Shown piece after piece: positions 23,713-56,019 of a stretch of DNA of 64,000 bases. Position 1 is the first letter of the stretch. The number at the start of each line of letters is the position of its first letter. The stretch lies in contig NZ_CP020042.1 of assembly GCF_002028425.1 (NCBI RefSeq), positions 3,348,001-3,412,000 of the forward strand, given 5' to 3'. The translations under genes and the position numbers were made by a program. The DNA comes from Streptomyces katrae. Lineage in GTDB: Bacteria; Actinomycetota; Actinomycetes; Streptomycetales; Streptomycetaceae. A model generated the notes under the pieces. The model saw nothing but the letters and a program-made list of their open reading frames with translations, was not told where the DNA came from and made no database searches.

Positions 23713-23785
23713 GCCTTCGTAGCTCAGGGGATAGAGCACCGCTCTCCTAAAGCGGGTGTCGCAGGTTCGAATCCTGCCGGGGGCA
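23713..23785 (+). tRNA. tRNA-Arg (anticodon CCT)
   Basis: A 73-nt cloverleaf. The acceptor stem pairs GCCTTCG with CGGGGGC (including two G-T pairs), the D arm contains AGCTCAGGGGATAGAGC, and the anticodon stem is CCGCT/AGCGG with loop CTCCTAA (CCT at 23746-23748). The T arm is GCAGG-TTCGAAT-CCTGC and the discriminator base is A. CCA is not encoded. It reads AGG codons. Confidence 0.96.
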
Positions 23786-36972: not shown

Positions 36973-37259
36973 AGGGAAGGCGCTTACTTCCTCGTGGATC
37001 AGGCCCTCGGCCGGGATTCGCACTCCCGCCGGGGGCCGTCTCATGTCTGGGGTTGTCGGCGCGAGCATATGCCCGGCAACCACCTCCAACTCCAGCCGAG
37101 TTGGCATAGTTCACCCGTCCGAGCGACCAGGTCCGCGCGGGGAGGCTGGTGGGGTTGGTCTGGTTCTTTCCCCCGGTTCTTTGGTCTTTTGACGTGCGGG
37201 GCGACCGTCCGGCGGGCCGCCGTGGCGTAGGTTTTCGCGACCCGGTTCGAACGCATGGG

Positions 37260-52941: not shown

Positions 52942-53910
52942 CTACCGCCCCTCCTCCCCGGTGTCGCGGGCCACGACGTACGTCGGCCGGGCCTGGACCG
53001 CCGTGTGGATGCGGGCCACGTACTCGCCGAGCATGCCCAGGCAGAACAGCTGGACGGCGCCGAAGAACAGCATGGTGATGATCAGGGAGGTCCAGCCGGG
53101 CAGCGTGTCGCCCGTGGCGTGGACGACGAGGGCCCACACCAGGAACCCCAGGCAGACCAGGGAGCTCAGCGCGCCGATCGCGGTGGCCAGCCGCAGCGGG
53201 ACGGCGGAGAAGCTGGTGATGCTGTCGAAGGCCAGCAGGACCATCTTGTGCAAGGGGTACTTGGAGGTGCCCGCCGCCCGCTCCGCGCGCCGGTAGGCGA
53301 TCTGCCCGCTGGGGAAGCCCAGCCAGGGGATGAGCAGGCGGTAGATCTGCTGCTGGTCGGGGAGGGTCTTGAGGGTGTCCACGACGGCACGGGACAGCAG
53401 CCGGAAGTCCCCGGCCTGGTCGGGTACGAAGGAGCCGGCGAGGCGGCGCATGAGCCGGTAGTAGACGCCGGCCGTGCGGCGTTTGAAGCCGCTGTCCGTG
53501 GAGCGGTCGGTGCGGACGCCGTAGACGATGTCGAGGCGTTCGGCCCGGGCGAGGGCGAGCATGTCGGGGATGACCTCCGGCGGGTCCTGGAGGTCCGCGT
53601 CGATGCTGACCACGTACGCGCCGCGGGCGCGGCGCAGTCCGGCGGTGAGGGCGGCCTGGTGGCCGCTGTTGCGCCTGAGGGTCACCACGCGCAGCTGCGG
53701 CCAGCCCGCGCGCAGGTCCTCCAGCAGGAGGGGGGTCCGGTCGGTGGAGCCGTCGTCGACGGCGATGACCTCGTACGGTTCGCCGCACCCGTCCAGGACC
53801 GGCCTGAGCCGTGCCGCCAGGACGGGCAGCACTTCCTCCTCGTTGAAGACGGGGACGGCGACCGACACGGCCGGCGCGTCCCCGCGCTCGTCGTCCACAG
53901 CCCTCATCAT
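52942..53910 (-). CDS. GT2 polyprenyl-phosphate glycosyltransferase (DPM1/GtrB-like)
   Basis: 322 aa from ATG 53910 (ATG 53907 and an upstream GTG are alternatives). An N-terminal GT-A domain has VSVAVPVFNEEEVLPVLAAR, VDDGSTDRT, RRNSGHQAALTAGL and SIDADLQDPPEV (DxD metal site). Two C-terminal membrane helices (LVCLGFLVWALVVHA and SLIITMLFFGAVQLFCLGML) are typical of GtrB/ArnC-type enzymes, which load a sugar onto undecaprenyl or other polyprenyl phosphate. It probably supports the neighbouring GT-C enzyme. 5 bp separate the two convergent stops. Confidence 0.9.
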   Translation of the reverse strand: MMRAVDDERGDAPAVSVAVPVFNEEEVLPVLAARLRPVLDGCGEPYEVIAVDDGSTDRTPLLLEDLRAGWPQLRVVTLRRNSGHQAALTAGLRRARGAYVVSIDADLQDPPEVIPDMLALARAERLDIVYGVRTDRSTDSGFKRRTAGVYYRLMRRLAGSFVPDQAGDFRLLSRAVVDTLKTLPDQQQIYRLLIPWLGFPSGQIAYRRAERAAGTSKYPLHKMVLLAFDSITSFSAVPLRLATAIGALSSLVCLGFLVWALVVHATGDTLPGWTSLIITMLFFGAVQLFCLGMLGEYVARIHTAVQARPTYVVARDTGEEGR

Positions 53911-53946
53911 GCGCGAAGCCCCCGCCACCGGCACGCGGAGGAGGAA

Positions 53947-53988
53947 ACGCCGCGGCCCCCGCCCGGACGGGGGCGGGGGCCGCGGCGT
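53947..53988. terminator. Strong 18-bp hairpin after the symporter gene
   Basis: A perfect 18-bp stem (53947-53964 with 53971-53988), 15 bp beyond the symporter stop on the minus strand. Confidence 0.8.
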
Positions 53989-54003
53989 GCGGGTGCCGGC
54001 GCG

Positions 54004-55323
54004 TCAGGCGGCGACGGCGACCGGGGCCGGGGCGGCGGCGGGCTCGTCCAGCGGGGAGGACGAGGCGGCGGCGTAGGCCTCCTTGTCGAGGATGCCCTCT
54101 CGCGCGGCCACCAGGACAGGTGTTACAACTTGGCCGGCGACGTTGGTGGCCGTGCGCATCATGTCGAGGATCGGGTCGATCGCCATCAGCAGGCCGACGC
54201 CGGCGAGCGGCAGGCCCAGGGTGGAGAGGGTCAGGGTGAGCATGACCGTCGCACCGGTGAGACCGGCCGTGGCGGCGGAGCCGACGACCGAGACGAACGC
54301 GATGAGCAGGTACTCCTTGATGCCCAGCTGCACGTCGAAGATGTTGGCGATGAAGATCGCGGCAAGGGCCGGGTAGATCGCGGCGCAGCCGTCCATCTTG
54401 GTGGTGGCGCCGAACGGGACGGAGAAGGAGGCGTACTCCTTCGGGACGCCCAGGCGCTCGGTGACCTTCTGGGTGACCGGCATGGTGCCGACCGAGGAGC
54501 GGGAGACGAAGGCCAGCTGGATGGCGGGCCAGGCGCCCTTGAAGAACTGGACCGGGTTGACCTTGGCGACCGTGGCGAGGAGCAGCGGGTAGACGCCGAA
54601 CATGACCAGGGCGCAGCCGATGTAGATGTCGGCGGTGAAGGTGGCGTACTTGCCGATCAGGTCCCAGCCGTAGCTGGCGATGGCGGTGCCGATGAGGCCG
54701 ACGGTACCGATCGGTGCGAGCCGGATGACCCACCACAGGGCCTTCTGGAGGAGCTCCAGGACGGACTCGGCGAGGTTCAGGACGGGCTGGGCCTTGGCGC
54801 CGAGCTGGAGGGCGGCGATGCCGGCGACGGCGGCGAGGAAGACGATCTGCAGGACGTTCAGCTCGGTGAACGGGGTGACGATGTCCTTCGGCACGATGCC
54901 GGTCAGGAAGTCGATCCAGGAGCCGTGCCGCTTGGGCTCCTTGCCGTCGGCCGGGGTGAGGCCGGTGCCGGCGCCCGGGTCGGTCAGCAGGCCGATCGCG
55001 AGGCCGATGCCCACCGCGATCAGCGAGGTGATCATGAACCAGAGCAGGGTGCGGGAGGCGAGGCGGGCGGCGTTGTTCACCTTCCGCAGGTTGGTGATCG
55101 ACACCAGGATCGCGAAGAAGACGAGCGGGGCGACGGCCAGCTTGAGCAGCTGGATGAAGATGTCACCGACCTGCTCCAGGGTGGTCTTCAGCCAGCTGAC
55201 GTCCTGGCTGCGGGCTATCCAGCCGAAGAGGACGCCGAGCGCGAGACCGGCGACGATCTGGGCCCAGAAGGGGAACGTGAAGGAGGCCTTGGCGGGAGCC
55301 TGGGCCTGGGGGGACGTGGACAC
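54004..55323 (-). CDS. DAACS-family dicarboxylate/amino acid:cation symporter, possibly a cystine transporter
   Basis: 439 aa from GTG 55323 (GGAG 7 nt upstream). Glutamate-transporter fold: eight helices, the LAVAPLVFFAILVSITNL segment, the SRSSVGTMPVTQ serine-rich hairpin, and PFGATTKMDGCAAIYPALAA for the NMDGT-like motif. The GCAxIYPA variant reminds me of the TcyP/YdjN cystine carriers more than of DctA. A poly-Cys leader peptide ORF lies 112 bp upstream on the same strand, suggesting control by cysteine. The C-terminus is an Ala/Pro tail. Substrate unproven; a C4-dicarboxylate remains possible. Confidence 0.85.
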   Translation of the reverse strand: MSTSPQAQAPAKASFTFPFWAQIVAGLALGVLFGWIARSQDVSWLKTTLEQVGDIFIQLLKLAVAPLVFFAILVSITNLRKVNNAARLASRTLLWFMITSLIAVGIGLAIGLLTDPGAGTGLTPADGKEPKRHGSWIDFLTGIVPKDIVTPFTELNVLQIVFLAAVAGIAALQLGAKAQPVLNLAESVLELLQKALWWVIRLAPIGTVGLIGTAIASYGWDLIGKYATFTADIYIGCALVMFGVYPLLLATVAKVNPVQFFKGAWPAIQLAFVSRSSVGTMPVTQKVTERLGVPKEYASFSVPFGATTKMDGCAAIYPALAAIFIANIFDVQLGIKEYLLIAFVSVVGSAATAGLTGATVMLTLTLSTLGLPLAGVGLLMAIDPILDMMRTATNVAGQVVTPVLVAAREGILDKEAYAAASSSPLDEPAAAPAPVAVAA

Positions 55324-55434
55324 GGCAATCTCCGGGGGACGCACGGACGTACGGCGGAAGGTTTCTGCGGGGGGTGCGGTACGGCGGCAGCCGGAAAGGG
55401 GCCGGGCCGGCCGGCGACCGCTGCTGCGGGCGCT

Positions 55435-55542
55435 TCAGCGGCAACAGCAACAGGCCGCTGACACGCGGCGGCAGAGGTCGACGTGCAGGCGCGCCACGAG
55501 CGGGAGGCTCGGGCTCATCGGGTGCGCTGCGACGGTCAACAT
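55435..55542 (-). CDS. Poly-cysteine leader peptide (putative cysteine attenuator)
   Basis: 35 codons. ATG 55542 is preceded by TAGCGT (a good -10 box) with 7 nt between, and by TTGGGT 18 nt further up, so the mRNA is probably leaderless. The peptide ends ARLHVDLCRRVSAACCCCR, with Cys at 24 and 31-34, and stops with TGA at 55437-55435. The RLHVDLCRR-type core recurs in actinobacterial leader peptides before sulfur genes, and runs of Cys codons are known in mycobacteria as ribosome-stalling cysteine sensors. The downstream gene, 112 bp away, is the DAACS symporter. Too short for standard gene finders. Confidence 0.82.
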   Translation of the reverse strand: MLTVAAHPMSPSLPLVARLHVDLCRRVSAACCCCR

Positions 55543-55554
55543 GCCGCACACGCT

Positions 55555-55584
55555 AACACTTCTGCTTTGAGAAACCCAAAGGGT
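55555..55584 (-). promoter_or_regulatory. Putative promoter of the poly-Cys leader/symporter transcript
   Basis: Minus strand: TTGGGT, an 18-nt spacer, then TAGCGT ending 7 nt before the leader ATG. This spacing fits a vegetative promoter whose transcript begins at or next to the ATG. The positions given are approximate to a few bases. Confidence 0.5.
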
Positions 55585-55647
55585 TGCTTTGAGAACTGAT
55601 CACGGACGCCTCGGTCCATGGCGCCCGCACACCCCCGGAAACGCCGA

Positions 55648-55686
55648 AGCCCCAGCGCGGCGGGGGGTGTTCCCGGCGCTGGGGCT
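55648..55686 (-). terminator. Hairpin after the DUF4229 gene
   Basis: A perfect 11-bp stem (55648-55658 with 55676-55686), 28 bp after the DUF4229 stop and upstream of the leader-peptide promoter. It insulates the symporter transcript. Confidence 0.7.
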
Positions 55687-55713
55687 CGTCGGTGGAGCGT
55701 TCGTATCAGCAGC

Positions 55714-56019
55714 TCACGCGCGGGCGGCGTCGTCGGCCGCGTCCTCCTGGCTGCGGTTCGCGGCGAGCTTCTGCTTCGCATCCGCGACGCGTCCGGAAAT
55801 CTGCTGGGACATCTCCTCGCGCTGCTTGCGCAGCAGGACGAAGGAGAGCGGCGCGGAGAGCACCAGCGCGAGCAGCACGACCCAGGCGGGGTTGGCGGCG
55901 CCCAGCCCCTTGGGCACGACGCCGAAGTGGACGAGGAGGGCGACGAAGACCAGGCATCCGACGAAGATGCCCAGGCGCATCGCGGTGTAGCGGATCGTCG
56001 CACTCGGCTTGAGGGACAC
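55714..56019 (-). CDS. DUF4229 small membrane protein
   Basis: 101 aa from GTG 56019 (GAAGGGG about 5 nt upstream). Two hydrophobic helices (LGIFVGCLVFVALLVHFGVV and AWVVLLALVLSAPLSFVLL) are followed by a charged cytoplasmic helix (RKQREEMSQQISGRVADAKQ). This two-helix plus amphipathic tail pattern is the actinobacterial DUF4229 family. It commonly sits near the menaquinone genes in Streptomyces. The function is unknown. It is separated from the GNAT gene upstream by 95 bp. Confidence 0.85.
   Translation of the reverse strand: MSLKPSATIRYTAMRLGIFVGCLVFVALLVHFGVVPKGLGAANPAWVVLLALVLSAPLSFVLLRKQREEMSQQISGRVADAKQKLAANRSQEDAADDAARA

Follow-up and report, generated by a model that had tools for sequence, protein, structure and literature searches.

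A conserved leader peptide with a near-invariant TGT cysteine codon before a TcyP-like symporter gene of Streptomyces, a proposed cysteine-responsive attenuator

What does a 35-codon reading frame that ends in a run of cysteine codons do in front of a symporter gene that carries only a general family name? A preliminary description of this locus, in a 64,000-nt stretch of Streptomyces katrae DNA (the window, meaning the whole stretch that was analysed), had read the frame as a cysteine-sensing leader of a cystine-type carrier. The ORF is real, and the -10 box described 7 nt before its ATG was confirmed as TAGCGT. The leader does lie upstream of the symporter; only the distance, given as 112 bp, had to be corrected, as it measures 111 nt. 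The features of the locus are listed in Table 1. At the gathering threshold, Rfam had no match at the leader. Elsewhere in the window, the Rfam Streptomyces sRNA scr4677 was found at 36973-37211 (-) with 102 bits, and a tRNA gene at 23713-23785 (+) with 65 bits.

Table 1. Features of the leader and symporter locus, in window positions
Feature	Position	Strand	Basis
Leader ORF, 35 codons; 35-aa peptide MLTVAAHPMSPSLPLVARLHVDLCRRVSAACCCCR	55435..55542	-	ORF call; leader present at 138/139 orthologous loci
Conserved core of leader, RLHVDLCRRVSAAC	55450..55491	-	Codon table, 117 distinct leaders; core common to NF042934/NF042933 leaders
TGT codon of near-invariant Cys, inferred sensing codon	55450..55452	-	TGT in 115/117 symporter leaders and 49/49 other leaders
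-10 element TAGCGT	55550..55555	-	7 nt 5' of leader ATG
Gap between leader and symporter, C-rich, G-poor, without a T-run	55324..55434	-	111 nt
Symporter, DAACS (SDF, PF00375), cystine-carrier type, GTG start	54004..55323	-	Pfam PF00375, 354 bits; GCAxxYPA insertion; tree
Symporter GTG start codon	55321..55323	-	
Symporter Shine-Dalgarno GGAG	55330..55333	-	Sequence; GGAG conserved at that place across aligned loci
TTTCCGG, able to pair with CCGGAGA over the Shine-Dalgarno	55391..55397	-	Predicted fold only (minimum-energy and centroid)
CAAAG-N5-CTTTG-N7-CAAAG element near the -35 region, possible operator	55565..55591	-	Alignment of 43 loci

We searched for the leader at 139 orthologous symporter loci, comprising 30 loci from a genus search (150 genomes, with the symporter gene in 102 at E <= 1e-100), 80 from a scan of named genomes and 29 from a class search (197 genomes, with the symporter gene in 49). 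Some strains occur twice among these loci; counts out of 117 refer to distinct leaders, and a paralogue (L002) was left out of the orthologue counts. A leader was present at 138 of the 139 loci, 135 being recognised by pattern and three (L159, L160 and L173) by eye, and its presence reached down to symporter identities of ~55%. Streptomyces and more distantly related actinobacteria alike retain both the leader and its position. The one exception, in Streptomyces sp. NRRL S-87 (L057), has lost the leader and kept the promoter and the symporter, and this strain could serve for comparison. In two further loci (L021 and L070) the leader is altered after RLHVDL; both were retained in the counts. 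Among seven additional far orthologues, a leader was present in four, in one of them at the very edge of the available sequence, and absent from the 242-500 nt searched in the other three. The 222-500 nt upstream of 14 DctA/GltP-type paralogues contained no leader in any case (0/14).

The region upstream of the leader is also conserved, and together with the recurrence of the leader this goes beyond chance. A -10-like motif, GTGTTA[ACG]NGT, precedes the leader in 115/117 Streptomyces loci, and the distance from its hexamer to the leader start codon is 7 nt in 99 of these 115, 6 nt in 7 and 1 nt in 9. This spacing fits transcription beginning at the leader start codon, suggesting that the leader ORF probably begins at the transcription start and is leaderless. 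In S. lividans, the -10 consensus is given as TAnnnT and 17% of transcripts as leaderless (PMC8079986). A simple sigma-70 scan, of a kind that covers Streptomyces promoters poorly, returned no promoter-like site in 53900-55760. The CAAAG-N5-CTTTG-N7-CAAAG element occurs once in the window genome (G000). Of 60 genomes of the order that were scanned, 22 have it, always as exactly one copy, and the reversed control occurs in none. In the 7 of these 22 genomes with a known symporter position, the element lies just upstream of the symporter. It may serve a dedicated regulator as its operator.

Across the 117 distinct leaders, the conserved pattern is R-x-H-V-D-L-x-R-x-x-S-x-x-C, with R, D, L, R and the last Cys near-constant. 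The last Cys is kept in 16/16 distinct far leaders, which look like MVNIWGLTERLHVDLRRQASAACPA, though other residues differ. The four-Cys run of the window leader, taken by the preliminary description as the key feature, did not prove to be one. Counted from the sensing position on, there is a single Cys in 48 leaders, runs of two, three and exactly four occur in 51, 6 and 11, and one leader has none, so that runs of at least three make up 17/117. The run in the window is thus a variant of its clade. The codons at the constant residues vary (among 101 Streptomyces leaders, His is CAC in 59 and CAT in 42, and Asp is GAT in 60 and GAC in 41), and such synonymous variation at R, H, V, D and L shows selection on the peptide. 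The last Cys is encoded by TGT in all of the 117 leaders except the two altered ones, L021 and L070. TGT makes up 3/98 Cys codons in the genes of the window (30 ORFs), or 5/123 with a looser gene set.

The resemblance to RLHVDLCRR leaders before sulfur genes, which had also been pointed out, is borne out by a core common to the leaders of the NCBIfam models NF042934 ('putative leader peptide', cis_reg_atten) and NF042933 (Ms5788A). The window leader has the core R-x-x-[VIM]-D-L-x-R with a Cys 10 residues past V, and scores 14.8 bits against NF042934, or 14.5 bits when the whole genome was searched. This protein model, which is blind to the TGT codon, has a cut-off of 27 bits, which the window leader does not reach; its score of 9.3 bits against NF042933 is likewise under the cut-off of 45. 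The symporter leaders of two genomes (G188 and G205) exceed the NF042934 cut-off with 30.4 bits. NF042933 matches the leader beside the symporter in two others (G263 and G277), with 26.9 and 24.5 bits, below the cut-off of 45.

We then read 49 leaders other than those of the symporter. Nine are the best of 19 NF042934 matches in the window genome (6 over the cut-off; the window's own was read as well), and 40 were taken from the 105 matches listed for a class search across 60 genomes, chosen mostly for their better scores and not as a random sample. R, D, R and C are each present in 49/49 and L in 46/49. The last Cys is TGT in all 49, compared with 11/58 for the remaining Cys codons of the same leaders (Fisher 5e-20, kinship ignored). 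At the NF042933 loci it is TGT in 24/24 of those that could be anchored, leaders with long Cys runs included; 6 of the 30 loci were not anchorable, and 5 of the 24 overlap with the set of 49. Since a protein profile is blind to codons, the profile search did not select for TGT. We have not seen this codon rule for sulfur leaders described, and it is directly and sharply testable, because a swap of UGU to UGC keeps the peptide.

The best 9 of the 19 leaders in the window genome precede genes for two sulfatases, a cysteine synthase, a cysteine dioxygenase, an SsuA-type binding protein, a sulfite/nitrite reductase-type protein, a rhodanese, a flavin reductase and a 2OG oxygenase. The other 9 matches, at 10.4-15.3 bits with one above the window leader, went through a pattern screen only. 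The leaders before a sulfatase, the flavin reductase and the 2OG oxygenase (L142, L143 and L144) are under the NF042934 cut-off, and each has TGT. The flavin reductase and 2OG oxygenase genes may be unrecognised sulfur genes, and leaders of this type offer a route to further ones. The leader before the cysteine dioxygenase gene (PF05995) is of the same type (L138, G000:C1:5701245-5701301 -). This gene fits poorly with a starvation response, as the enzyme degrades cysteine.

The symporter shares 30% identity with E. coli TcyP, 29% with DctA and 28% with GltP, values so nearly equal that identity does not decide the carrier type. The GCAAIYPA motif, which had been likened to cystine carriers, is present in the symporter. 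The motif has a one-residue insertion (GCAxxYPA) found in 17/17 aligned orthologues and in E. coli TcyP (YdjN, annotated as a cystine/sulfocysteine symporter), and in 0/17 other members; the aligned chains of solved structures of the GltPh type and of 9bgz are also without it. The orthologues had been selected for their similarity to the window protein, so that the weight lies on the presence of the insertion in TcyP. In a phylogenetic tree, the orthologues form a clade (100/99) separate from the DctA clade (100/99). With SstT left out, the orthologues and TcyP (one sequence) form a single clade (98/89), a grouping that hinges on this omission, since with SstT the TcyP branch is long and its position is not settled. 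An assignment to DctA is ruled out by the separate clades and the motif, and a tree constrained to place the orthologues with DctA was rejected (p-AU 0.0025). The window genome has a separate DctA-like gene, the paralogue L002, with 47% identity to E. coli DctA. By motif and tree, the symporter is a TcyP-like carrier and not DctA, in keeping with the earlier likening to cystine carriers.

Ribosome-mediated attenuation fits the parts of the locus: the probable leaderless start, a Cys codon close to where the leader ends, and a sulfur-type gene that follows it. We propose, with a probability of roughly 0.7, that the leader is leaderless and, read by ribosomes, senses cysteine and acts as a cysteine-responsive attenuator of a cystine- or cysteine-type carrier. 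Ribosomes would translate the leaderless leader at once and, when Cys-tRNA is short, would halt at the conserved UGU near its end; the window leader would present three more Cys codons after that UGU. The RxHVDLxR segment, at a fixed distance before the UGU, probably contributes to holding the ribosome there. The halted ribosome would allow expression of the downstream symporter, and the carrier would then import cystine, cysteine or a closely related sulfur amino acid; when cysteine is sufficient, the ribosome would run off and expression would be attenuated. We infer cysteine as the signal, the halting, the direction of control and the substrate. On this proposal, a transporter with a general family name would be tied to cysteine supply in Streptomyces.

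The same leader could be read in other ways. The loss of the leader at L057, where promoter and symporter remain, and the changed ends at L021 and L070 would suit a leftover, or a small protein with no role in control. The retention of a leader at the other 138 of the 139 loci, the near-invariant TGT codon and the similar leaders before several sulfur genes make this very improbable. An arrest peptide deserves more weight, and it overlaps with the attenuator proposed here: the RxHVDLxR nascent chain would halt the ribosome from within the exit tunnel and would sense free cysteine or a sulfur metabolite, not Cys-tRNA charging. Such a peptide would account for the fixed spacing of R, D, R and C in the 49 leaders, residues that the protein-model search itself favours, and for the synonymous variation that marks the peptide as selected. 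It also agrees with the 0 to 11 codons between C and the stop in those leaders, and with the 99/117 symporter leaders that have only one or two Cys at the sensing position. However, every intact core that we saw ends in a Cys codon, uORFs with Cys runs are reported to be cysteine-responsive (PMC9031893, PMC13236596), and a nascent-chain sensor alone leaves the choice of TGT unexplained. We hold an arrest peptide to be on the unlikely side.

How a ribosome halted at the UGU would change symporter expression is a separate matter. An attenuator with an intrinsic terminator was rejected, as 0/135 gaps contain at least 5 T in a row and there is no terminator-like site in 53900-55760. The gaps are rich in C relative to G, with a mean difference (C minus G) of 0.209 in 118 gaps of related loci compared with 0.020 in 23 upstream stretches of one window. 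This composition suits Rho entry, without showing it. The output that we favour is a C-rich Rho entry region that would be masked by the halted ribosome. RBS unmasking, reportedly the output step proposed for mycobacterial polycysteine uORFs, received little support in folding models. When a ribosome was modelled as held at the UGU, the mean unpaired probability of the Shine-Dalgarno was 0.16 free and 0.18 held in 109 Streptomyces loci (p 0.15); 47 Streptomyces loci of neither main clade showed a small rise, from 0.13 to 0.16 (p 0.017), and 14 far loci went from 0.24 to 0.23.

A further possibility, which also overlaps with the proposed attenuator, is an output at the RNA level, in which, as put forward for mycobacterial leaders, alternative pairings between the leader mRNA and the gap would hide or free the Shine-Dalgarno. 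A strong leader-gap duplex as a general feature was ruled out, the duplexes being weak on average (mean z -0.76 in 117 Streptomyces loci and +0.17 in 17 far loci), and the stability of the window's own leader-gap RNA is ordinary (z -1.23). Single helices stand out more clearly. The longest leader-gap helix was matched by at most 5/100 shuffles in 48/108 Streptomyces loci. The far loci bring the number of such helices to 51, and in 45 of these the leader side is the same segment around GCCGCTG. The consensus RNA fold of 25 main-clade loci returned the leader-gap helix. In the predicted fold of the window, TTTCCGG pairs with the Shine-Dalgarno. On the other side, only 3/18 far loci have a stand-out helix, a ribosome held at the UGU barely alters access to the Shine-Dalgarno, and by our own reading the clade of the window is without that helix in the same form. 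The uneven occurrence of the helix and the nearly unchanged access suggest that the RNA step, if there is one, differs between clades, and we consider an output of this kind unlikely.

The leader probably belongs to a known class of cysteine leaders. In mycobacteria, Cys-rich uORFs precede cysA2 and nirA (PMC4633059); according to PMC9031893 and PMC13236596, uORFs of this kind attenuate in a cysteine-dependent manner. These polycysteine leaderless uORFs (cysA2/Msmeg_5788, NF042933 Ms5788A; nirA/Msmeg_4527, NF042936 Ms4527A) resemble the symporter leaders in being short ORFs with an RRxVDLxR core, a Cys near the end and a sulfur gene next to them. Among the NF042933 matches, those with Cys runs included, TGT encodes the Cys at the corresponding position. 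The symporter leaders differ in that they precede a carrier, that the Cys run is not conserved and that RBS unmasking is little supported by folding. Our results suggest that the known cysteine leaders depend on a fixed peptide and one rare codon, not on a Cys run. A broader reading, which we put forward tentatively and hold to be possible but short of probable, is that the sulfur leaders of actinobacteria form a single class of ribosome-arrest sensors with codon specificity. The fixed nascent peptide RxHVDLxR would place the ribosome on one UGU, selected in preference to UGC. Through that codon, rather than through a poly-Cys run, the supply of Cys-tRNA would be read for a dispersed sulfur regulon with the cystine-type carrier among its members.

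Our literature search, outside which most subscription papers lay, found no paper on the link between symporter and leader or on the fixed UGU. Related cases have been described in other settings. The uORFC-8-2 motif before cysS in Rhodobacterales contains a uORF with conserved Cys codons for which attenuation has been proposed; it differs from the symporter leaders in that UGC dominates, that the model ends in a U run and that it comes from another phylum (PMC8632094). In C. glutamicum, cg2810 encodes a symporter of the same family in the McbR/CysR regulon and is suggested to be a cysteine/cystine carrier (PMC2580772). Going by the published description alone, it is alike in family and in sulfur control, and differs in being controlled by transcription factors (PMC2580772). 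For S. lividans, Table 4 of PMC8079986 gives 8 attenuators, none of them assigned to cysteine. The metL 'methionine' leader described in that paper, MSTTSDRTPATEATTTPGARCMCRRMCAF, has three Cys near its end (PMC8079986), and this leader might sense cysteine.
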